A DNA stretch of 64,000 bases from NCBI GenBank assembly GCA_034717495.1, contig JAYELL010000053.1, forward strand, positions 1 to 64,000, given 5' to 3'. The notes under the pieces were generated by a model. The model was not told the origin of the DNA, ran no database searches, and worked only from the letters and a program-made list of their open reading frames with translations. Source of the stretch: Chloroflexota bacterium (GTDB lineage Bacteria; Chloroflexota; Anaerolineae; JAAEKA01). Below, in pieces: positions 2,160-42,424 of this stretch (within the stretch, counting starts at the first letter, position 1; the number at the start of each line of letters is the position of its first letter). The translations under genes and the position numbers were made by a program.

Positions 2160-2475
2160 CAGAAAAAACCTAACCGCTGATAACCGCCGATAAACGCTGA
2201 TCAGACATCAGAAAAGATCAGCGACCTCTGCGCCGCAGGTCAGCGGGGAAAAGAAAAAAAACACAACCGCAGACCTGTCCTGCCCACTCCGGGGCACCTG
2301 ACGGTGAGCGTAGCCGAAGGGATGAACGCAGATAACCGCAGATCAATCAGAAAAAGATCAGCGAGAATCTGCGCCGAAGGTCTGCGTAAATCAGCGTTCC
2401 TCTGCCCTGTCCTGAGGAAAGAGAGGGAATGAACCGCAGCCCAAGTACCAGGTTCTGGCTTGTCCAGGATAGGAG
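2160..2475. repeat. Composite intergenic repeat, copy B
   Basis: This is a second copy of the composite repeat at 1009-1244, preceded by related AACCGCTGATAACCGC and GACCTCTGCGCCGCAGGTC units. The blocks at 2276-2320 and 2321-2404 align with 1050-1093 and 1145-1228 with only a few differences. The final TTCTGGCTTGTCCAGGATAGGAG supplies the AGGAG used as ribosome site by the following aldo/keto reductase gene. Copies A and B face the same way and bracket two gene fragments. Confidence 0.8.
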
Positions 2476-2482
2476 ATTACGA

Positions 2483-3454
2483 ATGAACTACGTTGATTTT
2501 GGCAGTACTGGTCAGCGGGTTTCCCAGATGTGTCTGGGCACCATGATGTTTGGCGAACGCTGCGACGAGGCAGAATCCGAGCGGATCCTCTCAGCAGCTA
2601 TGGACCAGGGCATCACCTTTGTCGATACGGCGGCGATGTACGGACAGGGGCGCACCGAGGAGATCATGGGACGCATCCTGAAAGGACGACGGGATCAGCT
2701 GTTTATCGTCACCAAGGTGACCAGGAGCACCGACGCGGCCTGGATTCGAGAGAGCATCGACGAAAGCCTGGCCCGCCTGCAGTTGGACTACGTCGACCTC
2801 TACCTGATTCATTGGCCCCGGGAGCAGATGCACACCGTGGAGATGATGGAAGGGCTCAATGATGTGGTTCTCCAGGGCAAGGCCCGTTTCGTCGGCTGTT
2901 CCAACTTTCCGGCCTGGCTGGTGGCTCATTGTAACGCCATTGCCCAGCGGAAGGGTTGGGCGCCGTTGATCTGCAATCAAGTACCCTACAATCTGATCGA
3001 GCGAGGCATTGAGGTCGAGGTGCTTCCCCAGGCCGCCGCCGAGGGGATCGCCATCATGACCTACCGGCCTCTGTTGATCGGCATATTGGCCGGTAAGTAC
3101 CAACCTGGCCAGGCGATGCCTGCCGACTCCCGCGGCCAGACCGATGGGCGCATTGCAACCTGGGTAGCCAGGTATGCCGATGGCCTGCGTCGCTTCAACC
3201 AGTTTGCATCCGAGCGGGGCCTGCATCCGGCGCAGCTGGCAATCGCATGGCAATGCCACACACCCGGAGTGACGTCGCCGATCGCCGGCGTGAGTTCGTT
3301 GGGCCAGTTGCAGGCCAGCATCGACGCCTTCGATGTGGCTCTCACTGCCGAAGAATATGCCGAGATTTCGGCCATGTTCGACACCGCCGTCAAGGAAGAG
3401 AGCGGCGGCAACTATCCTAACCTGCGCCGGTCCCATGACCTGGTGGCCAGTTAG
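2483..3454 (+). CDS. Aldo/keto reductase
   Basis: A 323-residue NAD(P)H-dependent oxidoreductase of the AKR TIM-barrel family. The four catalytic positions are visible: Asp and Tyr in FVDTAAMYGQG, Lys in IVTKVTR and His in LIHWPR. The Ser-Asn pair (GCSNFPAW) and the C-terminal cofactor segment (SPIAGVSSLGQL) are also present. The ATG at 2483 was chosen because AGGAG lies seven bases upstream; an upstream in-frame start would fall in repeat DNA. The enzyme probably reduces or oxidises a sugar or ketone. It is followed at 107 bp by a KDPG-type aldolase, which suggests sugar or sugar-acid catabolism. Confidence 0.85.
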   Translation: MNYVDFGSTGQRVSQMCLGTMMFGERCDEAESERILSAAMDQGITFVDTAAMYGQGRTEEIMGRILKGRRDQLFIVTKVTRSTDAAWIRESIDESLARLQLDYVDLYLIHWPREQMHTVEMMEGLNDVVLQGKARFVGCSNFPAWLVAHCNAIAQRKGWAPLICNQVPYNLIERGIEVEVLPQAAAEGIAIMTYRPLLIGILAGKYQPGQAMPADSRGQTDGRIATWVARYADGLRRFNQFASERGLHPAQLAIAWQCHTPGVTSPIAGVSSLGQLQASIDAFDVALTAEEYAEISAMFDTAVKEESGGNYPNLRRSHDLVAS

Positions 3455-3495
3455 GCTATTGACAATTAGCGTGACACCTCTGGAGACTGACGACT

Positions 3496-3514
3496 GTCCG
3501 GCTGGTAGCCGGAC
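3496..3514. repeat. Short perfect hairpin between reductase and aldolase genes
   Basis: GTCCGGCT-GGT-AGCCGGAC forms an 8-bp stem with a 3-base loop. It is 42 bp after the reductase stop codon and 48 bp before the aldolase start. No U-run follows, so it is more likely a small intergenic repeat or an mRNA-stability element than a terminator. Confidence 0.5.
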
Positions 3515-3561
3515 CTACGATCTGCATGGTTATTTTCGCTCACGACTGTCGAGGTCTTTGA

Positions 3562-4197
3562 ATGAATACAACTCTCCAACAGCTTGGCGACATGGGACTC
3601 ATCCCGGTTGTCGCCATCGACGACGCCGAAGATGCCCCCGATCTGGGCGAGGCTTTGCTGCAGGGCGGGCTGCCCTGTGTCGAGATTACCTTCCGCACAG
3701 CAGCGGCCACCGACGCCATTCAATCGATCGCGGCCAGGTTTCCCGAGATGGTGGTCGGCGCCGGCACTGTGCTCTCTGTAGCTCAGGCCGAAGAGGCCGT
3801 TTCCCGCGGGGCAAGCTTTATCGTCTCCCCAGGCTTTGATCCCCAGGTGGTCGACTGGTGCCTCGATAACGATGTTGCGGTGATGCCCGGCGTGATGACC
3901 CCCAGCGAGATCACAGCGGCTCTCAACAAGGACCTGCCGGTGCTCAAATTCTTTCCCGCGGAGGCGGCCGGCGGCGTCAAGTTACTGAAGGCGATCGGTG
4001 GGCCGTTTGTGGGTGTTAAGTTTGTGCCGACCGGCGGCATCAATGTGACGAACCTGCCCGATTATCTGCGGCTACCTGCCGTTCATGCCTGCGGCGGCAG
4101 TTGGATTGTCAAGCGGCAGCTCATCGCTGACGGTGATTTCGATGCGATTGCCCGCCTGACCGCCGAGGCAGTCGAGATTGTGCGACAGGTGCGATGA
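3562..4197 (+). CDS. 2-dehydro-3-deoxy-phosphogluconate (KDPG/KHG-type) aldolase
   Basis: A 211-residue class I aldolase, the usual length. The base residue is in VEITFRTAAATDAI (Glu) and the Schiff-base Lys is in VLKFFPAEAAGG; GAGTVLS, SPGFD, MPGVMTPSE and PTGGIN are all family motifs. The family splits 2-keto-3-deoxy-6-phosphogluconate or close analogues into pyruvate and an aldehyde. GAGG lies seven bases before the ATG. The gene converges tail-to-tail with the RuBisCO-like gene only a few bases away, leaving little room for separate terminators. In context it may serve the adjacent sugar operon or the lost mannonate-dehydratase pathway. Confidence 0.88.
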   Translation: MNTTLQQLGDMGLIPVVAIDDAEDAPDLGEALLQGGLPCVEITFRTAAATDAIQSIAARFPEMVVGAGTVLSVAQAEEAVSRGASFIVSPGFDPQVVDWCLDNDVAVMPGVMTPSEITAALNKDLPVLKFFPAEAAGGVKLLKAIGGPFVGVKFVPTGGINVTNLPDYLRLPAVHACGGSWIVKRQLIADGDFDAIARLTAEAVEIVRQVR

Positions 4198-4200
4198 TCC

Positions 4201-5349
4201 CTAAGCCTGTTCAACGAGCCGGCGAAACTGGCGGCTACTGGCCACAAGGTCGGGTCCCTGTCCATAGAGAGCGCCGGCGATGAGGAAGATGGCTTCCTTG
4301 CCGTAGAAACGCGACAACTCGGGCAGCCTGTCCAGCGTCATGCCACCGGCCGGGATGGGAAAGATGGGTTTCAAAGGACCCATGTCAGCAGCGGTGGCCT
4401 CCACAATGCCCCGGCAATCGGCGCGGCTGAAGGAAAAGCGGCCGCCGAAATTCACGAATATGGTGGCGTCTGCCCCTGCCAGGCGCGGCAGCTGGCCGAA
4501 AACGACCCGGTGCGACAGGCCCTGGTCCGGGTGGATGGCAAAGGTTCCCAGCCAGGCAGGGTGGCTCAGAATGGGCAGGCCAAGGGCGCTGTTCTGTGCC
4601 AGGATCCGCACGCTGTCCCAACCCACCAGGCCTGGAGCCACCATGATGCCGCCGGCTCCAGAGCCCCTGGCCTTGAAGGCGCGGGCAACGATCTGGTCAG
4701 CTGGAGCGGTCACGTTGGGAACATAGAGACAGCAGTAGCCTGTCTCGCGATTGGCTCGTTGGACTGCCTCTGCGCAGCGGGGGACTCTTTCGGAGAAGGG
4801 GGCGAAGGATTGCCCGGTCAGGCCGTGATCCTCTTTGATGATGTCAATGCCGCCAAGGGCCAGCTTGTATGCCAGGTCCGCCAGATCGCTTGCCCCTAGT
4901 CCCATGGGCTTGAGCGCCGTACAAAGCAAGGCTCGATCTGTGACTCCCAGCAGAGATCGAATTCCCTCTCTACCAAAACGCGGCCCATGAAACTGCATCA
5001 ACAAACTCTCCGGAAGATCGAGGTGGAGTACCTTGATCCCGGGATGCATGGCCGAATTGCCAAAGACCACGTTGAGTAGTTGCGTGAGCTCACCGGCCGC
5101 GGCTTCGATGGGATAGCTGATCGTAGCGTCGTATCGCTCTTCTCCCGCAGCTTCCAGCGCCTCGATGCGTCCGACCAGGTGGGCGCGGATGTCGTCGTCA
5201 GCCAGCAGGCTGTCGGGTATTTCAACCGTCTGCTCCAGGCAGATGCCATAGGCTTTTGCCCTGGCCTTGGCCTGGGTTTCAGCGACGAGGCGATAGCATA
5301 CGCCAAAACGCTCGCCCGAAAGGCTCAGCGAGGTTTCCGGGAAGATCAT
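4201..5349 (-). CDS. RuBisCO-like protein (form IV RLP), probable sugar-acid phosphate decarboxylase or isomerase
   Basis: A 382-residue protein with the RuBisCO large-chain fold. ALKPMGLG carries the Lys equivalent to catalytic K175 (Lys147 here). GGIDIIKEDHGL carries the Lys that is carbamylated in RuBisCO (Lys172) and one metal-ligand Asp (174), but the second ligand Glu is His175. Loop 6 reads NFGGRFSFS, so the essential RuBisCO Lys334 is replaced by Arg or lost. It is therefore not a CO2-fixing enzyme. It also lacks the PSPYGS loop I associate with MtnW enolases; the HGL and GGRFSF signatures resemble RLPs linked to sugar-acid catabolism. The ATG at 5349 was preferred over a TTG at 5400 that overlaps the kinase, but neither has a strong ribosome site. 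Last gene of the operon. Confidence 0.85.
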   Translation of the reverse strand: MIFPETSLSLSGERFGVCYRLVAETQAKARAKAYGICLEQTVEIPDSLLADDDIRAHLVGRIEALEAAGEERYDATISYPIEAAAGELTQLLNVVFGNSAMHPGIKVLHLDLPESLLMQFHGPRFGREGIRSLLGVTDRALLCTALKPMGLGASDLADLAYKLALGGIDIIKEDHGLTGQSFAPFSERVPRCAEAVQRANRETGYCCLYVPNVTAPADQIVARAFKARGSGAGGIMVAPGLVGWDSVRILAQNSALGLPILSHPAWLGTFAIHPDQGLSHRVVFGQLPRLAGADATIFVNFGGRFSFSRADCRGIVEATAADMGPLKPIFPIPAGGMTLDRLPELSRFYGKEAIFLIAGALYGQGPDLVASSRQFRRLVEQA

Positions 5350-5396
5350 AGGCAATTCGCTTTTGGACTTCTGTTTGCCGCAGGGAGAGGGTGAGA

Positions 5397-6944
5397 TCAA
5401 GAAGCGCTGACGTGGCGCACCATCTCGTGGGTCAGTTGCTGCAGCGGCGGATAGGTGTTGATGTACTGCTCAACGTAGAAGCGATAGGCCTGGTGTCTGG
5501 CGGGATCGGGTTCGATACGTGTGCGGACCTGCACCATCTGCTGGGCCGCGCTCTGGATGTCGGGGAAGAGCCCGGCGGCCACGGCGCCCAGGATAGCGGA
5601 GCCCAGTGCAGGACCATCGGGCACGGCGGTCAGGGTGATGGGCACATTGCTGACGTCGGCATGGATCTGCATCCAAAGGGGACTCCTGGTGGGTCCACCG
5701 GACGCCACCATCTCATCCACCACGAAACCGTTTTGGCGAAACGTGCGAAGGATATGCTCCGTGCCGTAGGCGATCCCCTCGATGATGGCTCGGAACAGGT
5801 GGCCAGTGGTGTGTTTTAGGGAGAGGCCGCGCACGATGCCGCGCGCTTCGGGGTCAACGTAGGGTGTGCGGTTGCCCTGCCAATAGTCGAGGACGATCAG
5901 CCCTTCGGAGCCAGGCGGGATCGGTTTTGCCAACCGGTCGAGAACAGTGTATGCATCAACGCCTTGTTCGGCAGCCTGCAGCACCTCTTTGGCACAGAAG
6001 TTGTCCTTGAACCATTTGACGACGGAGCCGGTGGACACCTGGCCACCCTCGACAGTGTATTGACCGGGCAGGATGGCGTCGGTGAAGGCTCCAAAGATGC
6101 CTTTGGCGAAGAGTGGCGTTGCGCTCTGGCCCAGGAGTAAATGGGAGGAACCGGTGATGAATGCCAGCTTGCCCGGCTGCAACACATTCAAGCCAATCAT
6201 GGCCACGTAGCCATCTGCGCCACCTTGGGCCACAGGGATGCCGGCTGGCAGGCCAAGCTCGTCGGCCACGTCGGGCAACAGAGTCCCTGCTATCTCGCCC
6301 ATGTCCAGAACACGCTGCGGGAATCGAGAGATAAGGTCGCCAAGGCCAATCTGCTCGTAGAAATCATCGGGCCAGCCACCCTCGGCTCGGTCGTAGTACC
6401 AGCGGATACTGGTGTTGTTGATGCTGGCAGTCCACTGCCCGGTCAAACGGAAAGTCAACCAGTCGATGAATTCGCCTACATGGCTGGCCTGCCGGTAGAT
6501 CTCCGGCTCGTTCTCCTTGAGCCAGAGGGTTTTGCAGGGCAACCATTCGGCGGACACGTTGCCATAGCCGTTGTATTTGAGGGCTGGATGGCCGCTCTCT
6601 GCGATGCGTCGGGCCTGCTCGGCGGCGCGGACGTCCATCCAGATAATCGCAGGGCGCAACGGCTGAAAGTGCTCATCCATCGCCACAACGGTACAACTTG
6701 TGCAATCCGCTCCCAGGCCGACGATCTCTTTCCTGGCAATGCCGCTCTTGGCCATTGCAGATCGCGTGGCTACAACCAGGGCAGACCACCACTCGTCCGG
6801 GCGCTGCTCGGCCCATCCCGGATGTGGGTGATTGAGCGGGTACGGCTGGGAAGCAAACACGACAGGTTGCCCCGTCTGATCGAATATACCAACCCGCACG
6901 CTCTCCGTGCCAAAATCGATGCCCAGGACATAGGAACCGGACAT
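5397..6944 (-). CDS. FGGY-family carbohydrate kinase (ribulokinase-like)
   Basis: A 515-residue ATP-dependent sugar kinase. The N-terminal phosphate-1 motif is VLGIDFGTESVRVGIFD, followed by GLGADCTSCTVV and IIWMDVRA. The C-terminal lobe has TGSSHLLL, the FGGY signature region and ASGGPTRSPLWMQIHADV. GTESVR and ADCTSCTVV are closest to ribulokinase or AraB-type members; LsrK-like members also belong to this family. The ATG at 6944 has GGAGG eight bases upstream, so a longer frame was rejected. It probably phosphorylates a ketose or polyol made or imported by this operon. It lies between the dehydrogenase and the RLP, which suggests it feeds one of them. Confidence 0.88.
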   Translation of the reverse strand: MSGSYVLGIDFGTESVRVGIFDQTGQPVVFASQPYPLNHPHPGWAEQRPDEWWSALVVATRSAMAKSGIARKEIVGLGADCTSCTVVAMDEHFQPLRPAIIWMDVRAAEQARRIAESGHPALKYNGYGNVSAEWLPCKTLWLKENEPEIYRQASHVGEFIDWLTFRLTGQWTASINNTSIRWYYDRAEGGWPDDFYEQIGLGDLISRFPQRVLDMGEIAGTLLPDVADELGLPAGIPVAQGGADGYVAMIGLNVLQPGKLAFITGSSHLLLGQSATPLFAKGIFGAFTDAILPGQYTVEGGQVSTGSVVKWFKDNFCAKEVLQAAEQGVDAYTVLDRLAKPIPPGSEGLIVLDYWQGNRTPYVDPEARGIVRGLSLKHTTGHLFRAIIEGIAYGTEHILRTFRQNGFVVDEMVASGGPTRSPLWMQIHADVSNVPITLTAVPDGPALGSAILGAVAAGLFPDIQSAAQQMVQVRTRIEPDPARHQAYRFYVEQYINTYPPLQQLTHEMVRHVSAS

Positions 6945-7043
6945 GGCTGTTACCTCCATCCGTTGAAGCAATCAGCGCCTGGGCAACCGCCAACAATGAA
7001 TTGCGGCAGCAAGGGCGCTGAAGGGTCGACCCATCTTGCCGTT

Positions 7044-7931
7044 TTATTTCTTCACTTCAACACCGGCCTGGTCTTCCAGGTTTCGTATCATGGCGGAGGC
7101 GTTCAGCTCGCCCCAGCCCTTGTTCACCGCGGCCTTGATATTCTCACGGGTGGCGGCACTTGCAGGAATGGGTACGTTCAGGTCCTGGGCGAAGCGAGCA
7201 ATCAAGTTGGCATCCTTCAACATCAGTTTGAGGGCAAAATGGGTGCTGAAGTCGCGCTCAATCAAGGCATGACCCACGCCGTCGAATATGGGCGACTTAA
7301 AATCGGTGACATGCAATACGCCCAGGACATCTTCAGGATCAAGGCCCGCCCTGGTCGCCAGGACCATGGCCTCGCCCAGCGCCTCCAGCTGGGACGCCAC
7401 CACGAGATTGCCGACCAGCTTCATGGAGGAGCCCTGCGCTGTGCCGCCCATGTAGTGGGTAGTTTCGCTGAGCACCTGCAAAATCGGCTTGACCTGCTCG
7501 TAAAGTTCCTTGTCGCCGCCAACCACAATCCACAAGCCACCCTGTGCAGCCTCGTTTCTGCTGCCAAAGACAGGCGCATCCAGGAATCGAACTCCCTTTT
7601 TGGCATAGGCCGCGGCAGATTTGCGACTGGTGTCCGGGTGCACGGTGGTCAAATCGACGACCGTCTGGCCTGGCTGCACGGCCGACAGCAGGTCGCCATC
7701 GCCGAAAAGCAAGTCCTCGACTGCGGCATCGTCGCTGAGGCAGTACATGATCAGGTCAGCGTCGGCCACCGCCCGAGCAGGGGTGGTGGCCTGCACAGCA
7801 CCTTGCCTGACCAGCGATTCGCAGCGTTCGGGTGACCGATTCCACACGGTTACAGGATAGCCGGCTTTGAGCAGATTTCCAGCCATGCCCCGTCCCATGA
7901 TTCCCATACCAAGATAAGAGATTTTTGTCAC
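7044..7931 (-). CDS. NAD(P)-binding beta-hydroxyacid dehydrogenase (HIBADH/6PGDH family)
   Basis: A 295-residue enzyme, the normal length. The Rossmann motif is [15 protein letters not shown], the substrate loop is [16 protein letters not shown], and the catalytic Lys with its partner Asn is in SSMKLVGN. The family oxidises 3-hydroxyacids (hydroxyisobutyrate, tartronate semialdehyde, 4-carbon sugar acids). The GTG start was chosen because AGGAG lies seven bases upstream. It sits between the ABC permease and the FGGY kinase in the operon, so it probably oxidises or reduces an intermediate of the imported sugar. The order of steps cannot be read from sequence. Confidence 0.87.
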
Positions 7932-8045
7932 AGAAGTACTCCTGTTGAGTTTGCAATGGCCCATTCCGATCGAAGCGGGTTTGGGCGTGAGCTGCGCGGG
8001 GAAGCAGAGAGCGGCCCGAGCAGGGAGTCAATTGACGGACAGGTG

Positions 8046-9086
8046 CTAAGTTTGGGTGCCCGGACTGCGTTTGCGTCGCCGATCGACGTAAAAAGTGAGC
8101 ACCATCACCAGCAAAAGCAACCCACCCCACGCAATCTGGCGGAAGAAGATGGCTGCGCTGGAAGGGAACAACTCCAACATCAACATGTTGAGGCCGGTCG
8201 AGAGGAACTGTATGCTCAACACAGCCAGCACCAGGCCGGAGACCGTGCCGAAGCCACCGGTGTAGCTGACGCCACCCAAAATAGCGATAAGCACTGTCAG
8301 CAAGATGAACGATGCGCCGAAGTCTGGTTTGGCCGAGTTGGTTCGGGCCAGGAAGATGATGCCCGCAATGCTGGCCACCAGACCGGCGATCCAGTATGTG
8401 CGTAACAGCACGCGGTTGCTGTTGATACCTGAGTAGAGGGCTGCCGTCGGGTTGGTGCCAAGCATGTAGACGTTGAAGCCAAAGGTCGTGCGGTTGAGCA
8501 TGATAGAAAAGACAACAGCTATCACAGTGAAGACGATGACGGGGATCGGCAGGCCCAGAATGTAGCCGTTGCCGATGAAAGCCAACTGGGTTGTAGTGAT
8601 GGCCGGACCACCCGTGACTACGAACGACAGGCCGGTGTAGATGGCACCGGTGCCCAGGGTGGCCAGAATCGGTGTGATGCCCACGGTCGATACCAGGAAC
8701 CCGTTGAACAGGCCGCAGATAGAACCGACGATGAGGGCGCTGATCATGGCCAGGGGAATAACCAATACCGGCGACATGCCGGCGCCATTCTCGCCGGCCA
8801 GCCGTGTCAGAACCAACGCCGCTACTACCGCCGACAGGTTGGCCGCGCCGACGATGGACAGGTCAATGCCGCCGGTCAGCATGGTGATCATGATGGCGAA
8901 AGCCAGGATGCCGTACTCCGGAAACTGTACCATCATCGACTGCATGTTCCTGATGGTCAGAAACTTGTCGGGCAGCAACAGGCTGAATGCCACGAAGATG
9001 GCAAATGAGATGACAAACAGGCGCAGCGTATAAATGTCGAACGGCAGACGGTTTATCAATGAATTCCGAGAAGTAGTTTTTTCCAT
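8046..9086 (-). CDS. Sugar ABC transporter permease (RbsC/LsrD type), second permease
   Basis: A 346-residue polytopic inner-membrane protein of the branched-chain/ribose permease family (about 8-10 hydrophobic segments). Family signatures include [23 protein letters not shown]-type helices, [16 protein letters not shown] and [20 protein letters not shown]. The product pairs with the permease encoded immediately upstream (12-bp gap), as in LsrC/LsrD-type importers with two different permeases. It forms half of the membrane channel for the sugar bound by the lipoprotein at 11721-12788. Confidence 0.88.
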
Positions 9087-9098
9087 CTGTTATGCTAC

Positions 9099-10097
9099 CT
9101 AAGCATCCGCCAGGCCGAAAGATTGTTTGCCGGCGCGGCGTGCCTGGATGGCAGGGATGCCCGTACCAACCAGGATGATGATGCCAATGACGACCCGTTG
9201 CCAGACGGTGGGGACGCCGATCAGAATCAGGCTGTTGTTGGCAATGATCACCAGGATCACGCCCAGGATAGTGCCGATCACCGTGCCGCGGCCGCCGGTC
9301 AGGGTTGCGCCGCCCAGGACCACGGCGGCGATCACGTTCAACTCCATGCCGACGATGTCCTGGGGATTGGACTGGCGGGCAAGCGAGCCGAAGGTCATGC
9401 CGGCGATTCCCGATAATAGGCCGACAAAGGCATAGATGAAATATTGGATGCGGGTGATGTTGAAACCGGCCCGGTCGGCGGCCTCGGGGGCGCCGCCCAG
9501 GGCATAGATGCCTCGACCCAACATCGTATACCTCAAAAGCAGCCACACGCCAAAGGCAATGACTATCGTCATAATGACAGCCGGATGCAGGATGGCCATG
9601 CCTCTCTCCTGGGGAATATTCATCAGCGACGACCGGGCAAAGGCCGTCATGGCCGGCGGTACATCCCGGATGATCTGGTTGCCGATGGCGAAGAGCAGAA
9701 AACCGTGGATCATGCTGAGGGTGCCCAGGGTCACGATCAGGGTGGGCAGCTTAAACTGGGCAATAAAGAAGGCGTTGATCATTCCCAATCCCAGCCCGAT
9801 GACCGCGGCGACAATAAAGAACAACCAGATCGGCGCATCGGGCGAATAGGCCATGAGCAGCTTGGTGGTTGCGTGTAAGGCGAAGACAGCGACCGCTGTA
9901 AAGGAGACGTCGATCCCTCCCGAGATGAGCACGATAAGCACCCCCATGGCGAAGATGCCGGTGACAATGCTGCTGCGCAGGAGGGTAAATAGATTGCCGA
10001 CGGTGAAAAAGGTCGGGTTGTTGAGCCCAATGATGAGGCACAGGCCGACAATGGTTATGGCCACCAGGGTTTCGTTGCGGCGAAAGATGCGGTTCAT
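9099..10097 (-). CDS. Sugar ABC transporter permease (RbsC/LsrC type), first permease
   Basis: A 332-residue membrane protein of the ribose-permease family with [31 protein letters not shown] and [21 protein letters not shown] motifs. Its start lies only 4 bp after the ATPase stop, so the two are translationally close. It is distinct from the second permease, so the transporter is a heterodimeric-channel type, as in LsrACDB and related RhaSTPQ-type systems. Confidence 0.88.
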
Positions 10098-10101
10098 GGC
10101 G

Positions 10102-11598
10102 CTATTCCTCGATCAGCTTGGCGGACAGTTCGTTTTCGTCCGTTTCCTGAGGCAATATCCTCTCGACGATGCGCCCGTGGCGCATCAGCAGAATGAGGTT
10201 GCAGGTCTGCAACAGCTCAGGAATGTCGTCGGAGATCACCAGTAGCCCCATGCCTTCACCCGCCAGTTGTTTCATCATATCGTGTAGTTCGTTTTTCGAG
10301 CCGATATCCACGCCAACCGTTGGCCCATTCATGATCATGAGGCGCGGTTTGCTGGCCAGCCACTTGGCCAGCACGACACGCTGTTGGTTTCCACCCGATA
10401 ACGTATAAACCGGCAGTTCAGGATCGGAGGTTTTTATGCGGAGTGCTTCGACCCATTTGTCCACCTGTTCGTCGACCTGCCGGGGATCGGTCAGGCCCAA
10501 CGCGCCACGCAGACTATCGATGATGCGAACCACCAGGTTGCGACCGACGGACTGTTCCAGGAAGAGTCCCTCGGTGAGGCGATCCTCGGGCAGATAGCCA
10601 ATGTCGTGGCTAATGGCGTCCTGAATAGAATTGATCTCGACCTGTTTGCCATTCATGTAGATGAGGCCGGCGTCAGTGGACAAAATACCATAAAGAGCGA
10701 GAGCCAATTCGGTGCGACCCGAGCCCAGCAGGCCGGTTACGCCCACGATTTCACCCCCTCGCAGTTCAAAGGTGATATCCTCCAGCATGTCGCCGGCAGA
10801 AAGGCCTTCGACCTTGAGCAGGGCAGGTTGGCTTGTGTCTGGTGTAAACTCGTATGATTCCTCGGAAATGGCGTGGCCTGTCATCTCGTAGGTGAGGCGG
10901 GCATTGTCGTATTCGCTGCGCTCGCCTACGCTGACGATCCTGCCATTTCGCATGACGATCATCGTCTCGGATATCTCCAGCACTTCGTTCAGCTTGTGGC
11001 TGATGAAGAGGAAGGCAATACCGCGACGTCTTTGTAACCTGTGAATCACCGAGAAGAGGTTGCGGATCTCTCGCTCGGTCAGCGCGCTGGTGGGCTCATC
11101 CATGATAATGAGCTGGGCATTCCGGCGCAGGGCCTTGGCAATGGCGATGAGCTGTTTGTTGGCGACCGACATTTCCTCTACGTACGCGTCGAGAGGAAGG
11201 TCCACCTCGATCTGCGCCAATGCGTCTTCGGCGACTTGATGGACCCACCGCCAGTTGACCAGGCGCCGGCCCTCGGCCAGCTCCTCATTCAGAGCGATGT
11301 TTTCGGCAACCGTCAGATTTGGAAAGAGGGAAAAGTCCTGATAGATAACCTGGATGCCCTCACGGATGGCGTCGATAGGCTCGATTTCCTCGAATTCCTT
11401 GCCGTTGATGATCACTGTGCCAGCGTCCCGCTCGTAGACACCGGCGATGATCTTGATCAGCGTCGATTTACCGCAGCCGTTCTCCCCGACCAGGCAGTGG
11501 ATTCTGCCCGGTTCGATGGTCAGATCGACCCCCCGAAGCGCATGCACGCCGGCAAAGGATTTGAAGATGCCAGTGAGGTGCAGAAGTTCATCGGTCAT
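10102..11598 (-). CDS. Sugar ABC transporter ATPase (two nucleotide-binding domains)
   Basis: A 498-residue tandem ATPase of the RbsA/XylG/LsrA class. The first domain has Walker [14 protein letters not shown] and Walker [14 protein letters not shown] with an ABC-signature equivalent around [14 protein letters not shown]. The second has a Walker-A-like [14 protein letters not shown], signature [15 protein letters not shown] and [17 protein letters not shown]. In the second Walker B the usual DEPT is NGPT, so the Asp-Glu pair is lost and this site may be catalytically weak; one degenerate site is common in this class. The ATG at 11598 was chosen as it begins the conserved domain; no strong ribosome site is visible. 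Confidence 0.88.
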
Positions 11599-11636
11599 GC
11601 TGGGACGTCCGGCTCCTTCTGCCGGGTGGGTGAAGC

Positions 11637-11669
11637 ACCTTCCTGGAAGCAATAGGCTTCCAGGAAGGT
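11637..11669. promoter_or_regulatory. Intercistronic hairpin between binding-protein and ATPase genes
   Basis: ACCTTCCTGGAAGC and GCTTCCAGGAAGGT form a perfect 14-bp stem around a 5-base loop. The hairpin lies just downstream of the sugar-binding protein stop and upstream of the ATPase start on the - strand. No U-run follows. Such structures after binding-protein genes commonly protect the upstream mRNA from 3' exonucleases or partly end transcription, which makes the binding protein more abundant than the transporter. Confidence 0.7.
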
Positions 11670-11720: not shown

Positions 11721-12788
11721 CTAGAACGGATAATCTGGCGCGCTCTCGGCATTAACGTAGACAGCGCCGTCGCCGTACAATACGTTGCCTTCAGCGATCA
11801 GGTTGTTGTAGCCATCGATACCCAGGTCGGTACCCTCACCGATTTCCTCACCATTGATATACATCAGAGCAATCTGGTTGCAGGCGGCGCCGGCTACGGC
11901 CGGATCCCAGAAGCCAATGTAATCGACGGCGCCGGTGTCAAACAGATCACCGACAATGGAGGGCAGGGTCGTACCCACTTCAGAGACCTCATCCTGCAAG
12001 CCGGCTTCCTCAATGGCGCGGCCGATGCCGACGGGATCAGTGGAGGCACTGCTCTGGAAGCCCTTGAGGTTGGGATAGGCCGCCAGGACCTCTTTGGCCT
12101 TCTGGTAGGCGATCTCGGCGTCGTCGAACGCTTCGACTTTGTCGCCGGCCATAACCATGTTGGGATAGGCCTCTTTCTGGCGTGCAATACCGCCGTCCAC
12201 CCACTCGTTGTGAGTCTTGGAACCAAGGCTGCCCACGAATACGACGTATTCGCCCTCTTCACCCATCTCAGCGGCCAGGCGATCCATAAGACCGGCGCCA
12301 AAAGCGGTGTTGTCGAAGGCCTCGATGTCGTAGTGCATGTTCTCCTGGTTGCTGGCTTCGTGGGTGATGACAGTGATGCCGGCGTCCATAGCTTTCTTGA
12401 GCACCGGATCGAGCTGGGTTGGGTCCATGGGAACGACACACAGGGCGTCCACTCCCTGGGCGATCAGGTCCTCGATGATAGCGATCTGCTGGGCGGCGTC
12501 GGCCTCGGCCGGGCCGACGAGGGTGGCATTGACTCCTGGATGTTCATCGCCCCAGGCGTTGACGCCATCTTCCATGCGGTTGAACCAGCTAATGCCGGCG
12601 ATCTTGACGACGGTCACAAACTCCAGGGGTTCTTCACTGGCTTCTTCCGCCGGTTTTTCAGCAGCAGGGGCTTCTTCCGCCGGCGCTTGTTCGGCGGCGG
12701 GCGCTGGCACGGAAACGGGGGCGGCGCATGCAGATACGAGCATGGCGAAGATCAAAACTACAGCTACGACGGGAAACAGACGTTTCAT
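11721..12788 (-). CDS. Sugar-binding lipoprotein of the ABC importer (LsrB/RhaS-like)
   Basis: A 355-residue protein with a lipoprotein signal peptide ending in the lipobox LVSAC, then a Pro/Ala/Glu linker of about 40 residues, then a periplasmic-binding-protein type I fold. Segments such as [37 protein letters not shown] and [17 protein letters not shown] resemble rhamnose/autoinducer-2-type binding proteins more than ribose or xylose ones. AAGGAG precedes the ATG. It should be membrane-anchored outside the cell membrane and deliver the pathway's sugar to the permeases. The ligand is unknown. Confidence 0.87.
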
Positions 12789-12907: not shown

Positions 12908-13546
12908 CTAACTTGTTGCTGGTTCGACGATGGCGGCTAACATGATTGTGAAGGCGGCGCAGCCAGGATCCACCTTGCCCTCGGTACGCTCACCCACCCA
13001 ACTTGCCCGGCCAACTTTGCTGCGCAATGGCGTCACACTGTCTCGACCAGCTTCCGCCGCGCTCAGGGCCTGAGCGCCGGCCTCCTCCAGCGTCTCGCCC
13101 GCCGCCACCGCTGTTGCAAGCACCTCACTGGCCGGATGCATGGCGTCCACGATGGTTTTGTCGCCAGGCCTGGCTTTGCCGCGCTCCTGGATACCGGCGT
13201 CGGCGGCAACCAACATTTGGCTGATCTCCTGCGCTGAGAGTTCACTCTTGCCTTTGGCTTCCTTGCCTGCCCGCATCAAAGCGGTGGCAAGCAGGGTGCC
13301 CATGGTGGAGGGAGCGGTTCGATTGGCTGCCATGCCGGCCCCAACCAGAAACTTGCCGATGTCGTCCGTGGACGTGTCAGCGGCATAGATCGACAGCGCG
13401 TCGGCGATCTTTCCCATGGTGATGCCCAGATCGCCGTCGCCCAAAGCCTGGTCCAGCGAGGTTAAGTAGTCTCGCTGTTGGCTCAATGCAACGCAAGCCC
13501 GCTTCATGGCTTCCGCCACGGCCTGGCCTTGAATCTCTTCTGTCAT
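12908..13546 (-). CDS. dhaL: Dihydroxyacetone-kinase-type ATP-binding subunit DhaL
   Basis: A 212-residue all-helical nucleotide-binding subunit, the usual length. [17 protein letters not shown] contains the Mg-coordinating Asp cluster (GDGDxG), and [12 protein letters not shown] and [17 protein letters not shown] are the conserved later blocks. It acts with the DhaK subunit encoded immediately upstream. No DhaM/EIIA gene is present, so ATP rather than PTS phosphate is the likely donor. In this operon the substrate may be dihydroxyacetone or a 4-carbon ketose such as erythrulose; that is inference from known relatives. Confidence 0.88.
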
Positions 13547-13615: not shown

Positions 13616-14614
13616 CTAACCCTGGATGAAGAAGGGTGTCCGGGCTGGGTAATCAAGCAGTTCGGCCAGCTCATCGTCCAGGCGCAGGAAGGTGAAGGAG
13701 GCGCCTGCCATTTCCATGGAGGTGGCGTACTCGCCCACGTAGGCCCGATGCACTGAAATGCCCTGCTCGGCAAGCATCTGGTGCACCTTGCGGTACATGA
13801 TGTAAAGTTCCTCGGGCGGCGTGGCGCCCAGGCCGTTGACCATCACCGCCAGGCGGTCGCCCTCTTCTGGCTGCAGGTCGTCGAGAATGGCTGTGGTCAT
13901 ACGCTCGGAAATCTGGTCGGCGGTCTGAAGTTGCTCCCGCTTCATGCCAGGTTCGCCATGGATACCCATGCCGATCTCCATCTCGCCATCGCCGATGGTG
14001 AATGTCGGTGTGCCGGCCATGGGCACCGTGCAGGGCGAAAGAGCCACGCCCATGGTGCGGGTATTGGCCAACGTCTTCTCGGCAATGGCGACCACTTCAT
14101 CCAATGAGCCGCCCATATCTGCCTTGGCCCCAGCCGTCTTGAAGGCGAAAACCATGCCCGCGACTCCCCGGCGGCGGTCCGCCTCCTCGGGTGGCGCCGA
14201 GGCGACATCATCTTTCACCAGTACTGTGCGGACCTCAATATCCTCGAATTCGGCCAACTCGGCTGCCATGTCAAAGTTCAAGACATCGCCGCCATAGTTG
14301 CCGTAGATGTAGACAACACCTTTGCCACCGTGAATACGTTGCGTGACCCACAACATCTGCTCGGCACCGGGGGACGCGAAGACGTCCCCAACGGCACAAC
14401 CATCCAGCATACCCTGGCCGACGTAGCCGAGGAATACAGGTAGATGGCCCGACCCGCCGCCGGTAGCCAGCGCTACCTTGCCCTCGACCGGTGAGTCGGC
14501 GCGCACGATGCAATGGATGTCTTCGGTATGGGCGAGTTGATCCGGATGGGCCTTGATCAAGCCTTCCAGCATCTCCGGGACAAAATCAGCCGGATCGTTT
14601 AGAATTTTCTTCAT
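13616..14614 (-). CDS. dhaK: Dihydroxyacetone-kinase-type substrate-binding subunit DhaK
   Basis: A 332-residue subunit with ATGGGSGHLPVFLGYVG at the N-terminal substrate pocket and GMGIHGEPGMKR, whose His forms the covalent hemiaminal with the ketose carbonyl in DhaK. AGGAGG lies six bases before the chosen ATG. The start overlaps the end of the MtnK-like kinase gene by 29 bp, which supports translational coupling. The natural substrate could be dihydroxyacetone, erythrulose or another short ketose. Confidence 0.88.
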   Translation of the reverse strand: MKKILNDPADFVPEMLEGLIKAHPDQLAHTEDIHCIVRADSPVEGKVALATGGGSGHLPVFLGYVGQGMLDGCAVGDVFASPGAEQMLWVTQRIHGGKGVVYIYGNYGGDVLNFDMAAELAEFEDIEVRTVLVKDDVASAPPEEADRRRGVAGMVFAFKTAGAKADMGGSLDEVVAIAEKTLANTRTMGVALSPCTVPMAGTPTFTIGDGEMEIGMGIHGEPGMKREQLQTADQISERMTTAILDDLQPEEGDRLAVMVNGLGATPPEELYIMYRKVHQMLAEQGISVHRAYVGEYATSMEMAGASFTFLRLDDELAELLDYPARTPFFIQG

Positions 14615-15860
14615 GAGTTTCCTCCTGAACAATAGCAATCAGGTCCTCGATGCTGGTCACCGACCTGCGTTCCAGAACCCAGCGAGTGCCGATACGAATA
14701 GCCAGCCGCTCGGCAACAGCCCGCTGTTCCAGATCTTCGATGGTCGTCAAGTCCCAAACGCTGACGATTCCCATCATGCGCCGCAGGAACTTGGTGCCAC
14801 CGTGGCCGGCTGTCTCCTGCAGGAGTCTATGGATATAGCGGCGGCGATATTTGGCAAAAGCCTCATCACCACCAGGGAAGTCCCAGTAGGCCTCCGGAAC
14901 CAACTCACCGCGGTTGTTGTTGGCCCAGGTTTCGTCGAATTTTCGGGCGAATTCTTTCCAAATATCTCTGACCATTGCCAGCAGGTAAGCCTGATAGCGC
15001 TCTCTTTCGTCTGAATCGGGCGTATGGCCATAGTGCGAGAGATAGTTGAGAATGAGGTTTTGCAGAACCGCGCCAACATCATAGGCCATGGGACCAAAGA
15101 ATGCAAACTCCGGATCGATCACCCGGGTGTCCTCGGCGTTGAGCATAATGGAACCGGTGTGCAAGTCCGCGTGGATGAGCGCCTCGGCGTGAGTCATATA
15201 CGCCCTCTTCATCTCGGCGATGGCCATTTTCAGTTCCGGATTCGAGCGAACGGCCTGCACCTCGTCGTCAACCAGGGAGTTCCAGTTGTTCTCCTCTGAC
15301 TCCATGTAGGGGTTCGTGTAGACGAAGTCCTCCTGGAGCTTGCGAAGCTGTTCGTTGACGAATTTGGCCTCCAGAAGCTTTTTCTCCGGACCGGTGAGAT
15401 AGAGGTCGGAGGTAAAAAAGAGTGAGTTGACCAGGAAGGTAGAGATGTGATCGACAAATCGCGGATAGTGCTTTCGGGCCACCAGGCCCTTGCGCATGAT
15501 CTCATGTTCCTTGAGGTGCTCCATGATAACGAGGGACATCTCCTCGTCAAAATCATAGACTTCAGGGGCCAGGCCTGGGGCCAGTTCGTTATGCTTGAGC
15601 AACGCCTGGGTCTCGTAGCGCATACGTTCCCGGGTCAGTGGCCAGGAGTCTCCGGCTACGCGCAGGTAGGGCAGCGCCTGCTTGAGGATTACCGACTCCG
15701 CTGGATTGGCCCCGTTCTCAACGATAAATACCAGGTTCAGGTTGCCATCTCCAACCTCGCTGATGGACAGCTGGCTGAAATCGGAAAACACGCCTGCCAG
15801 CGCAGGGCGTTGCGCAATATAGTCTTTTATGGTGGTCTCATCCAAAGCGTGGTAGGCCAT
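14586..15860 (-). CDS. mtnK: S-methyl-5-thioribose kinase-like protein (MtnK family)
   Basis: A 424-residue kinase of the APH-like fold, close to the usual 390-420. The nucleotide loop is EVGDGNLNLVFIV with KQALPYLRV; the catalytic loop reads IHADLHTGSIM, where most MtnK have HGDLH; the metal motif is VIDPEFAFFGPM. MtnK phosphorylates the anomeric carbon of 5-methylthioribose, and relatives act on 5-deoxyribose. With the adjacent MtnA-like isomerase this gives the first two steps of 5-substituted ribose use. No MtnB, MtnD or DrdA-type aldolase is in the window, so the downstream route must differ or lie elsewhere. Confidence 0.83.
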   Translation of the reverse strand: MAYHALDETTIKDYIAQRPALAGVFSDFSQLSISEVGDGNLNLVFIVENGANPAESVILKQALPYLRVAGDSWPLTRERMRYETQALLKHNELAPGLAPEVYDFDEEMSLVIMEHLKEHEIMRKGLVARKHYPRFVDHISTFLVNSLFFTSDLYLTGPEKKLLEAKFVNEQLRKLQEDFVYTNPYMESEENNWNSLVDDEVQAVRSNPELKMAIAEMKRAYMTHAEALIHADLHTGSIMLNAEDTRVIDPEFAFFGPMAYDVGAVLQNLILNYLSHYGHTPDSDERERYQAYLLAMVRDIWKEFARKFDETWANNNRGELVPEAYWDFPGGDEAFAKYRRRYIHRLLQETAGHGGTKFLRRMMGIVSVWDLTTIEDLEQRAVAERLAIRIGTRWVLERRSVTSIEDLIAIVQEETHEENSKRSG

Positions 15861-15904: not shown

Positions 15905-17032
15905 CTACACTCGTTTTTCCGGGTACAACCCCAGAACCCCTTCCTCGGAGGCAGGGCAGATGCCGCGCTCGGTGATCAGGGCGGTAACCAGATGAGCCGG
16001 GGTAACGTCGAAGGCGTAGTTAGCGGCAGGGCTATCGCTCGGCGTCAGGAGGACGGTAATGATTTCGCCGTCATGTAGCCCCTGGATGGTCTTGATCTCC
16101 ATTGCATCCCGTTGCTCGATGGGGATCTCCCGCACGCCATTGCGCCGTTCCCAGTCAAATGTTGAGGATGGCAACGCGACGTACAGAGGAACCCCGTTGT
16201 CGCGAGCCGCCAAAGCCTTGAGATAGGTGCCGATCTTGTTGGCAACGTCGCCCGTGTACAGGGTGCGGTCGGTGCCAACGATAACGACATCCACCATGCC
16301 GTGCTGCATCAGGTGCCCGCCCACGTTGTCGGCGATGACGGTATGATCGATGCCGTGCTGGCCCAGTTCCCAGGCAGTCAGACGCGCGCCCTGGTTGCGA
16401 GGCCGGGTCTCGTCGACCCACACGTGGACGGCAATGCCATCGTCGTCAGCGGCATAAATGGGCGCTGTGGCCGATCCATAATCCACAAAGGCCAGCCAGC
16501 CAGCGTTGCAGTGGGTGAGGATATTGACCGGTTCTCCACCTTTGCGCTCACTGATCTCCTGGATGATTGTTTTGCCGTGTTGGCCGATGCGCCGGCAGAA
16601 GTCAGCGTCCTCGTCGGCAATAGTTTGAGCCGTGGCCAGCACTGCCTCGATTTTGGCCTCACGGTCGCTGCCTGCGGCGGAGATGGCTGCCAGTTGACGT
16701 TTAACCGCCCATTCCAGGTTGGTCGCCGTGGGTCGGGTTGCCGTGAGCAGGTCGCCGTCCCTGGCCAAGGCCGCCTCGAAGGCCGCCGCCGGCGTTCGAG
16801 GGGCGTGCAGCGCCGCCAGGTACATGCCATAACCCGCCGTAGCGCCGATGAGGCCAGCGCCGCGCACGTGCATGTCCGCGATGGCCCGCGCTACATCTTC
16901 GACCGTGACAAGATCCTCGACGATGAATCTGTGAGGCAGGTGGCGTTGGTCGATGATTTGCACTACAGCAGGATCGTTTTCCTTTAGCCAGATGGTTCGA
17001 TAGTGCTTACCTTGGACATTCATGCTTTGCAT
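15905..17032 (-). CDS. mtnA: S-methyl-5-thioribose-1-phosphate isomerase-like protein (MtnA/eIF2B family)
   Basis: A 375-residue enzyme. The N-terminal strand is GKHYRTIWL; then HVRGAGLIGATAGYGMYLA. The catalytic Cys lies in ILTHCNAGWLAFVDYG and the catalytic Asp in VIVGTDRTLYTGDVANKIGTY (more often GADR..ANGD). These are the two residues needed for aldose-1-phosphate to ketose-1-phosphate conversion. The same fold includes ribose-1,5-bisphosphate isomerase, which in archaea feeds RuBisCO, so pairing with an RLP is notable. The first of two close ATGs was chosen because AGGA lies five bases upstream. It is followed at 44 bp by the MtnK-like kinase gene. Confidence 0.86.
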   Translation of the reverse strand: MQSMNVQGKHYRTIWLKENDPAVVQIIDQRHLPHRFIVEDLVTVEDVARAIADMHVRGAGLIGATAGYGMYLAALHAPRTPAAAFEAALARDGDLLTATRPTATNLEWAVKRQLAAISAAGSDREAKIEAVLATAQTIADEDADFCRRIGQHGKTIIQEISERKGGEPVNILTHCNAGWLAFVDYGSATAPIYAADDDGIAVHVWVDETRPRNQGARLTAWELGQHGIDHTVIADNVGGHLMQHGMVDVVIVGTDRTLYTGDVANKIGTYLKALAARDNGVPLYVALPSSTFDWERRNGVREIPIEQRDAMEIKTIQGLHDGEIITVLLTPSDSPAANYAFDVTPAHLVTALITERGICPASEEGVLGLYPEKRV

Positions 17033-17103: not shown

Positions 17104-18000
17104 TTAGAACATCTTGGGCAATAACGCGTCCCAGATCCGTTTATCGTTTTTGGTGGCCAGGTCGATGCTGTTCAGCGCCATGATCACGTACAGGGCGTCG
17201 GCGATGCTCACCTGGGCCAACCGGGAGGCGATAGCCTCGATGCGGGCTTCCCGGGCAACGCTCAGCAGCGTGACATCTGAAAACTCGGTGATTGGCGAAT
17301 GGGCATTTCCGGTGATGCAGACCGTGGCCGCTCCGTTCGCTTTGGCCTGCTTGAGCGTGAGAACAGGGTCCATGGAACTGCCCGATTGGGAGATCGCAAC
17401 CACAACGTCACCAGGGCCCATGAGCGCCACTTCCATCAGTTGGAGATAGGAGTCGGTTTGAGCCTTGCAGTTCAGGCCAAGCCGCAGCAGCATGTTGTAC
17501 ATGCTCTGCACGATGGGAGCCGATGTGCCGACCCCGACAATCAGAATGCGCTTGGCTGTGCCGAGCAGCTCGATGGCTTCAATCAGGGCATTCTCGTCCA
17601 GCACCTCCAGGGTGTCATAGAGTGCCTGGATGTTAGACATGAACACCTTGCGGGCGATGATCGCCGGCGCATCCCCCTCGAGGATATCGTCGTGAATGAC
17701 CTGGGTGGGACTGACCAGATCACGTGCGATGGACAGCTTCAGATCGGTGTAGCCCTGAAAGCCGGCATTTCGACAGAAGCGCAACACCGTTGTATCGCTC
17801 ACACCACATGCCTGAGCGACCTGGGCCATGGATAGTTCCATGATTTTTCCAGGCTGCTGCATAACCCAATTGGCCACACGGGCTTCCGATGCGGCCAACG
17901 CGGGAAAACTACTGCGAATGCGGGTCAGGGAGTTGATCGAGGATGGAGCTGTGGCGGTGGTTCGGCCATCGCCGTCTGGGTCTCGCTGCACGTGATACAT
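17104..18000 (-). CDS. RpiR-family transcriptional regulator (HTH + SIS domain)
   Basis: A 298-residue regulator. The N-terminal helix-turn-helix includes VANWVMQQPGKIMELSMAQ and ACGVSDTTVLRFCRNAGF; the C-terminal SIS domain has ILIVGVGTSAPIVQSM and VVVAISQSGSSMDPV. RpiR proteins sense phosphosugars through the SIS domain and usually control adjacent sugar operons. It is the promoter-proximal gene of the -strand operon that ends with the RLP, so it probably regulates that operon and itself. The first ~20 residues before the HTH are not conserved and the start is uncertain; no strong ribosome site is visible. Confidence 0.87.
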   Translation of the reverse strand: MYHVQRDPDGDGRTTATAPSSINSLTRIRSSFPALAASEARVANWVMQQPGKIMELSMAQVAQACGVSDTTVLRFCRNAGFQGYTDLKLSIARDLVSPTQVIHDDILEGDAPAIIARKVFMSNIQALYDTLEVLDENALIEAIELLGTAKRILIVGVGTSAPIVQSMYNMLLRLGLNCKAQTDSYLQLMEVALMGPGDVVVAISQSGSSMDPVLTLKQAKANGAATVCITGNAHSPITEFSDVTLLSVAREARIEAIASRLAQVSIADALYVIMALNSIDLATKNDKRIWDALLPKMF

Positions 18001-18154
18001 CCGTTATTGTGGTGGTACAACAACATAAAAGGGATTAACGTGATACTGCCACGCAATTATAGTGCAGACTACAGGCCCTGTCAAATCAACCTGCGATCCC
18101 CATAGCAATTCTCAATATGACGAAACAGGGAGCTGAAGTCTGCATATTGAGAAT
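18001..18154. promoter_or_regulatory. Candidate control region of the sugar operon with a 12-bp inverted repeat
   Basis: This intergenic stretch should hold the promoter of the -strand operon. Perfect arms ATTCTCAATATG (18108-18119) and CATATTGAGAAT (18143-18154) are separated by 23 bases, a spacing compatible with a dimeric operator. A weaker dyad TTGT..ACAA lies at 18007-18020, close to the RpiR start. The right arm is also only 3 bp past the toxin gene stop, so a role in ending that transcript is possible. The candidate site is AT-rich compared with its surroundings. Confidence 0.45.
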
Positions 18155-42300: not shown

Positions 42301-42424
42301 CGATGCCAACACCATGATTCCGGAGACCAAGGCGTTTCTGTGTGATGTGCGCAAGTTGGAGCAATCGGCCTTTCGCGAGGTACCTGCTGTTGAATCCGTT
42401 GGCAACAACGGAAAGGAGGTGTGA
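39347..42424 (+). CDS. fdhA: Formate dehydrogenase alpha subunit, selenocysteine-containing (FdnG/FdoG type)
   Basis: A single 1025-residue protein read through an in-frame TGA at 39905-39907. Evidence for Sec187: the flanking residues EHQARI-Sec-HSATVAALAESFGRGAM match FdnG (NQARV-Sec-HGPTVASLAPTFGRGAM), and both frames on either side are one continuous frame. N-terminus: Tat signal NLSRREFLKFSGLAAGA; 4Fe-4S ligands Cys48, 51, 55 and 83. Molybdopterin domains follow, ending in HQVGMPWHWGYKG. It oxidises formate to CO2 (or the reverse) and passes electrons to the beta subunit. The Tat signal places it outside the cytoplasmic membrane. It is followed 1 bp later by the beta subunit. Confidence 0.92.
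39905..39950 (+). promoter_or_regulatory. Selenocysteine TGA codon and putative bacterial SECIS hairpin
   Basis: Right after the TGA, TGCGGCTCTGGCA can fold with TGC/GCA closing a loop, about 15-30 bases downstream. This is the position of SelB-binding hairpins in E. coli fdhF/fdnG. Pairing was judged by eye only. SelA, SelB, SelC and SelD genes are not in the window and must exist elsewhere if the reading is right. Confidence 0.65.

Follow-up and report, generated by a model that had tools for sequence, protein, structure and literature searches.

Two RuBisCO-like proteins (RLPs), RLP1 (DeepYkr) and RLP2 (Photo), are described for R. palustris in the available portion of PMC5893883, which identifies RLP1, in vitro and in vivo, as a 5-(methylthio)ribulose-1-phosphate 1,3-isomerase that works downstream of MtnA in the MTA-isoprenoid shunt. 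The accessible part of PMC5468372, published in 2017, states that histidine replaces the canonical Glu204 in form IV proteins from both R. palustris and R. rubrum, citing a 2006 paper for it.

The window, by which we mean the whole 64,000-nucleotide stretch of Chloroflexota DNA analyzed here, encodes an RLP that falls in the clade of structure 3qfw, has the loop 6 arginine found in 3qfw, and shares with the R. palustris and R. rubrum proteins the histidine that the available text of PMC5468372 gives for them. Its surroundings differ from those of RLP1: by locus number, a cupin gene lies beside rlp1 in R. palustris (PMC5893883, accessible portion), whereas the window RLP is neighbored by an FGGY-family kinase, a GarR-like dehydrogenase, DhaKL, an importer, MtnK, and MtnA. 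The enolase MtnW shares the fold, Lys172, and Asp174 with the window RLP but has Glu at position 175 and Ser in loop 6 and belongs to another clade. OiaX (NF042437) likewise shares the fold, but OiaX-like proteins have Glu at position 175, other gene neighbors, and a separate place in the tree.

Clade and active site of the RLP

The mechanical open reading frame of the RLP gene spans 4201-5400 and starts at TTG; reading from the ATG gives the gene listed in Table 1. A predicted structure (mean pLDDT, 96.6) was closest to 3qfw (Foldseek E value of 3.9e-41; Z score of 47.1 and rmsd of 1.3-1.4 Å, with 2zvi and 2oem tied in Z). This entry, which is also the best PDB sequence match at 39% identity, is titled "Rubisco-like protein from Rhodopseudomonas palustris," and 2qyg is titled rlp2; because the species has both RLP1 and RLP2, we infer that 3qfw is the DeepYkr-clade RLP1. 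In a quick maximum-likelihood tree (no bootstrap, no R. rubrum RLP or labelled OiaT sequence among its rows, and some long branches, namely L024, L025, L118, and L121), the window RLP joined 3qfw and L121, whose RLP is encoded beside a cupin, in a 91-row clade with SH-aLRT support of 99. Within it, the window RLP belonged to a six-row Chloroflexota group with support of 100, two of the six rows being identical. The MtnW rows (2oek and L119), 4nas, the OiaX-like rows, and other RLPs of genomes of the same class lay outside the clade. The initial annotation had called the protein an RLP, and this is supported.

We examined the active site in an alignment of 117 rows, consisting of the 91 clade rows (89 distinct sequences, two pairs being identical) and 26 other RLP or RuBisCO relatives; the rows are not all independent because some genomes were reached twice (L029/G060 and probably G290; L030/G019; L031/G061/G245; L032/G062/G282). 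Lys172, Asp174, and His175 of the window RLP occupy the columns of RuBisCO Lys201, Asp203, and Glu204, where Lys201, like Asp202, Asp203, Lys175, and Lys334 below and in Table 1, follows RuBisCO numbering. The initial annotation had read K-E-D-H at Lys172-His175, within positions 4790-4890, with the histidine at the Glu204 position, and both the codons and the alignment bear this out: the column holds His in 90 of the 91 clade rows, Asp in the remaining one (Vibrio L024), and Glu in all 26 outside rows. The equivalents of Lys175 (Lys147) and of the carbamylation residue Lys201 (Lys172) are invariant across the 117 rows, as had been proposed for this protein. The loop 6 sequence GGRFSF was also read correctly, but its codons fall outside 4790-4890, the interval to which it had been assigned. 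Neither of the RuBisCO carboxylase residues considered here is present, since Lys334 is replaced by Arg304 and Glu204 by His175. The Lys334 column holds Arg in 90 of the 91 clade rows and a gap in the other (outside the clade, Lys in 12 rows, Ser in 10, Arg in 3, and His in 1), and for this reason carboxylation, which had been declared excluded, is better described as unlikely.

The second position of the motif is Asp in 85 of the 91 clade rows and Glu in 6, and the Glu of the window K-E-D-H appears to be a minor local feature; 3qfw reads K-D-D-H and GGRF, and 2oek, 2zvi, and 4nas read K-D-D-E. A pattern-free search at an E value of 1e-60 or better, which reaches close relatives only, matched the window RLP in 30 of the 346 genomes searched from the same class, which, judging by named relatives, is probably Anaerolineae. 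K-[DE]-D-H was present in all 29 loci that could be read, the 30th being a fragment that does not extend to this region; eight of the 29 have K-E-D-H, every one beside an FGGY kinase, and three more FGGY-linked loci have K-D-D-H. A broader contig scan gave loci L029-L108, the best 80 of 544 matches, and used two peptide patterns, one of which contained the His, so that its His count is biased upward. We rejected the idea that the His is a chance or local oddity, given its presence in 90 of 91 clade rows and 29 of 29 same-class loci. The initial annotation had treated the His as noteworthy in itself; it is a normal mark of the whole clade and no peculiarity of the window protein, and it is already known as a residue change, since it is in print (PMC5468372, available part). 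A natural variant occurs on a plasmid of Vibrio nigripulchritudo (L024, 8977-10122), where the RLP reads K-E-D-D, with Asp where the clade has His; its neighbors are a split transketolase and an FGGY kinase, with no MtnA or MtnK within the fetched stretch. The window RLP is thus a further member of a known clade, and the surrounding cluster is the part worth following.

The gene cluster and its relatives in the same class

The RLP gene is the last of a 12-gene minus-strand run that reads downward from position 18000 in the order RpiR, MtnA, MtnK, DhaK, DhaL, RhaS-like binding protein, ABC ATPase, two permeases, GarR-like dehydrogenase, FGGY kinase, and RLP (Table 1). The names given to DhaL, GarR, FGGY, and the binding protein are family assignments, with scores below the NCBIfam cutoffs. 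Upstream of the run stands a promoter-like sequence; under a looser 9-of-12 rule the region holds 10 such sites against 5.7 expected. No Rfam family matched at the gathering threshold across the whole window, and no riboswitch was found there. Viral contigs scanned with the single RLP protein, a query that reaches close relatives only, yielded no confirmed match.

Table 1. Positions of the RLP gene, its active-site codons, and the other features of the cluster in the window.
Feature	Position	Strand	Basis
RuBisCO-like protein (RLP), His-type clade, 382 aa from ATG	4204..5349	minus	Domain/profile matches, tree, alignment, predicted structure
Loop 6 GGRFSF, Arg304 at Lys334 position	4429..4446	minus	Codons GGC GGC CGC TTT TCC TTC, alignment
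K172-E173-D174-H175 motif (RuBisCO Lys201-Asp202-Asp203-Glu204 positions)	4825..4836	minus	Codons AAA GAG GAT CAC, alignment
Lys147 codon, RuBisCO Lys175 equivalent	4909..4911	minus	Alignment
FGGY-family sugar kinase	5397..6971	minus	FGGY_N, FGGY_C; no NCBIfam model over cutoff
GarR/3-hydroxyisobutyrate dehydrogenase-family NAD(P) dehydrogenase	7044..7964	minus	NAD_binding_2, NAD_binding_11; best model 215 bits, below cutoff of 340.75
ABC transporter permease 1	8046..9086	minus	BPD_transp_2; kept in cluster of relatives
ABC transporter permease 2	9099..10097	minus	BPD_transp_2; kept in cluster of relatives
ABC transporter ATPase, two ABC_tran stretches	10102..11652	minus	Pfam; kept in cluster of relatives
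RhaS-like sugar-binding protein	11721..12788	minus	Peripla_BP_4; RhaS model 121 bits, below cutoff of 342.25
DhaL subunit	12908..13546	minus	126.5 bits, below cutoff of 138.3
DhaK subunit	13616..14638	minus	411 bits, above cutoff of 406.25
MtnK, S-methyl-5-thioribose kinase family	14586..15860	minus	500 bits, above cutoff of 275
MtnA, S-methyl-5-thioribose-1-phosphate isomerase family	15905..17032	minus	402 bits, above cutoff of 279; sole copy found in genome
RpiR-type regulator, first cluster gene	17104..18000	minus	HTH_6 and SIS domains; same place in relatives
Promoter-like TTGACA-17-TATAAT, 12/12, upstream of cluster	18056..18084	minus	Consensus match only

Two plus-strand genes at 2429-4197, for an aldo-keto reductase and a KDPG aldolase, are convergent with the RLP gene. 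Neither had a match above 60 bits in the fetched flanks of L029-L032, although in L030 and L031 fewer than 350 bases follow the RLP; L133, which covers more sequence, gave an aldo-keto reductase match at 52 bits only. We left both out of the unit because the flanks of the close cluster relatives hold no match to them. Further along the window, a plus-strand gene at 39347-42424 encodes a molybdopterin oxidoreductase that reads as formate dehydrogenase-like and has an in-frame TGA at 39905-39907, probably encoding selenocysteine; the mechanical ORF call starts only at 39956.

The cluster recurs among same-class relatives. L167 has the same order from RpiR through RLP, and L133 has it from RpiR into GarR, its contig continuing in L029 through GarR, FGGY, and RLP. 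Genome G019 has this order on two contigs (L135 and the contig of L027/L030) that presumably adjoin, and L168 has it from MtnK onward; MtnA and MtnK hold the same place in L133, L135, and L167. Other arrangements also occur. In L170, which shares its contig with L031, a divergent MtnA lies 240 bases short of the contig end, with no GarR or MtnK in view; in L136, MtnA is divergent from the RLP cluster, and the contig ends 240 bases past it. L171, on the same contig as L032, has a cluster with no MtnA, MtnK, or GarR, and that genome carries a separate MtnA-MtnK pair (L134). Of the 30 same-class genomes, examined over about 1.5 kb on either side of the clade RLP, 11 have an FGGY kinase, 8 have half of a split transketolase, 3 have a divergent sugar-binding protein (leading in G232 into ABC-FGGY-DhaK-DhaL), and 8 have none of the three. 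Among these last eight, MtnA is near the RLP in L158 and L161, DhaK in L163, and cupin-DhaK-DhaL in L166. One same-class genome has RLP, cupin, DhaK, and DhaL in a one-strand row (L166, 8454-11780), which links a cupin route with the DhaKL module. Two kinds of MtnA, 75-80% and 43-46% identical to that of the window, occur per genome in L029, L031, L032, L049, and G019; because these five relatives hold the window-type MtnA plus at least one further homologue, it may be that the window type is a paralogue acting on a different substrate.

The window genome itself has one match to the window RLP and no other RuBisCO relative at an E value of 0.001. It encodes a single MtnA and an MtnP over the cutoff, and thus the genes called for by the MTA-isoprenoid shunt (MtnP or MtnK, plus MtnA). 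A cupin homologue, a candidate for the cupin methylsulfurylase of the shunt and 63% identical over 138 residues to the cupin beside the L052 RLP, lies on contig C16, another contig than the RLP. We found no match to MtnC, no MtnB over the cutoff, and no OAH/OAS sulfhydrylase over the cutoff (best, 193.5 bits against 495.1), absences that weigh little in an assembly of 120 contigs with an estimated completeness of 95.6%. Three weaker matches to the MtnB model, including ones at 60 and 52 bits, could instead be class II aldolases that cleave ribulose-1-phosphate sugars. From this inventory, methylthioadenosine salvage, if present, would plausibly run through MtnA and the window RLP.

Split transketolases and other partners across the clade

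His-type RLPs are accompanied by a split transketolase in L021-L025 and in 57 of the best 80 of 544 contig-scan matches, across many phyla and usually directly upstream (counted at >60 bits anywhere in the fetched stretch, with Pfam Transketolase_N and Transket_pyr/Transketolase_C confirmed on L021 only). All 57 loci have the C-terminal half, joined in 50 of them by the N-terminal half. In 56 loci the C-terminal half lies upstream of the RLP, and in 49 its end is no more than 300 bases from the start of the RLP ORF. When the count is limited to loci whose two flanks each extend 3 kb or more, transketolase is present in 35 of 49, and 23 of the 80 have no match in the fetched stretch. We found no description of this linkage in the literature searched, and the word transketolase is absent from the available text of PMC5893883, PMC6302742, and PMC6079011. 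These loci share with the window RLP its clade and active-site residues, and L049 and L108 carry MtnA/MtnK and sugar importers as well (L104, MtnA/MtnK); they differ in that the window cluster has no transketolase. L108, from Clostridium ljungdahlii, has the order MtnK-MtnA-split transketolase-RLP. The window genome's own transketolase halves are distant: the best scores 182 bits, compared with 391-530 for RLP-linked C-terminal halves in L029-L108, leaving aside those truncated at the end of a contig.

Other neighbors vary. MtnA or MtnK lies within the fetched flanks in 13 of the same best 80 loci and FGGY in 4. Hyphomicrobiales plasmids have the order mtnK-mtnA-transketolase N-transketolase C-RLP with a sugar importer alongside, and a Ponticoccus plasmid carries genes for a purine nucleoside phosphorylase, an amidohydrolase, MtnA, a molybdopterin oxidoreductase, a split transketolase, and the RLP. 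A single sequence cluster recurs in five loci (L042, L054, L056, L095, and L104), its L042 member being a Cys/Met-metabolism PLP enzyme, and cupins occur beside or near the clade RLP in L045, L052, L054, L121, L166, and L169 (in L045, L054, L166, and L169, beside it or within about 7.5 kb). These partner genes fit a sugar-phosphate isomerase acting on 5'-deoxynucleoside products. An Rfam scan covering eight of seventeen loci placed a SAM riboswitch some 0.3 kb beyond one clade RLP (L042, 10458-10558) and a TPP riboswitch some 3.2 kb beyond another (L043, 13388-13496); two in eight loci are too few to argue from.

Proposed function and its alternatives

We consider it probable that the window RLP is a 1,3-isomerase that converts a 5-substituted ribulose-1-phosphate to a 1-substituted xylulose-5-phosphate, acting third after MtnK and MtnA. 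We infer every reaction in this organism against an observed background of clade membership, residues, gene order, a single MtnA, and a cupin homologue. The importer and MtnK would supply 5-methylthioribose-1-phosphate or 5-deoxyribose-1-phosphate, and MtnA would convert the 5-substituted ribose-1-phosphate to the ribulose-1-phosphate. The RLP would then shift the carbonyl along the chain by 1,3-proton transfer, with Lys147 and Lys172 as candidate proton carriers and His175 as a fixed part of the site that would serve as an acid-base or as a neutral ligand of the metal. The initial annotation had suggested proton abstraction, and such chemistry fits the sole clade member with demonstrated activity, R. 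palustris RLP1 (PMC5893883, available portion). If the substrate carries a methylthio group, the cupin encoded elsewhere in the genome could remove methanethiol from the product to give 1-deoxyxylulose-5-phosphate; if 5-deoxyribose is the starting sugar, the isomerase product would itself be 1-deoxyxylulose-5-phosphate. FGGY might phosphorylate free 5-substituted ribulose at C1, offering a second entry to the RLP, as perhaps in Vibrio L024.

Several observations count against this assignment. The nearest clade member with demonstrated activity is 3qfw, taken as RLP1, at the 39% identity given above. The MTA-isoprenoid shunt as known has no step for FGGY, DhaK, DhaL, or GarR, MtnA or MtnK accompanies only 13 of the 80 clade loci within the fetched flanks, the cupin is unlinked to the RLP, and the genome search found no OAH/OAS sulfhydrylase over the cutoff. 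MtnA is divergent in L136, the MtnA-MtnK pair of L134 lies away from the cluster, and the second kind of MtnA in five relatives may speak against a plain methylthioribose role for the window type. That second MtnA also favors a variant that we judge unlikely, in which the same 1,3-isomerase chemistry acts on another ketose-1-phosphate, made by FGGY from an imported pentulose or deoxyketose, with MtnA and MtnK as a side entry. In this lineage FGGY is the RLP's constant partner (no more than about 1.5 kb away in the 11 of 30 same-class genomes noted above), is present where MtnA and MtnK are not in the cluster (L171), and in Vibrio L024 stands with a split transketolase and the RLP in a stretch with no MtnA or MtnK. 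Such a side entry is harder to reconcile with the placement of MtnA and MtnK in the same gene run in the window, L133, L135, and L167 and with an MtnA that is the only copy in the window genome.

Profile scores bear on two other functions. No NCBIfam model passes its cutoff for the window RLP, and the best scores, 200 and 157 bits, are to MtnW models with cutoffs of 409 and 513.6 (the latter TIGR03332), which leaves some room for a 2,3-diketo-5-methylthiopentyl-1-phosphate enolase like MtnW. We rejected this function, which seems very improbable: the scores are far below the cutoffs, the MtnW rows (2oek and L119) and 4nas lie outside the clade and read K-D-D-E where the window protein has K-E-D-H, and the genome has no MtnB over the cutoff and no MtnC match. 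The initial annotation had also proposed comparison with OiaX and OiaT, and the OiaX model does match, at 86 bits against a cutoff of 700. The comparison with OiaX proved of little use. Five OiaX-like rows, which score 391-501 bits with the OiaX model and so miss its cutoff too, each have a four-carbon acid sugar kinase next door; they group in a clade of their own and carry Glu at the His position, and no such kinase occurs among the ten cluster and neighboring proteins scanned. We rejected an OiaX-type function, and a 3-oxo-isoapionate-4-phosphate decarboxylase or transcarboxylase (OiaX/OiaT) seems extremely improbable. From its sequence, the window protein appears to be neither OiaX-like nor MtnW.

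Building on the 1,3-isomerase assignment, we offer a broader and distinctly more tentative proposal, which we would stop short of calling probable. His-type RLPs may be the hub of a widespread, undescribed salvage of 5-deoxy- and 5-methylthio-sugars, in which most members hand 1-substituted xylulose-5-phosphate to a dedicated split transketolase that would cleave it into glyceraldehyde-3-phosphate and a two-carbon fragment, perhaps releasing methanethiol, and the Chloroflexota lineage of the window may have replaced the transketolase by the FGGY kinase and DhaKL module. Phosphoketolases lose water, an analogy for loss of methanethiol at the split transketolase. Gene context matters more here than the His substitution, which is a known clade mark. 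If the 1,3-isomerase assignment is true, RLPs of this clade would act generally as isomerases on the sugar portions of S-adenosylmethionine by-products, and their gene neighbors (a split transketolase in many lineages; FGGY, DhaKL, and GarR here) would point to unexplored uses of those carbons.
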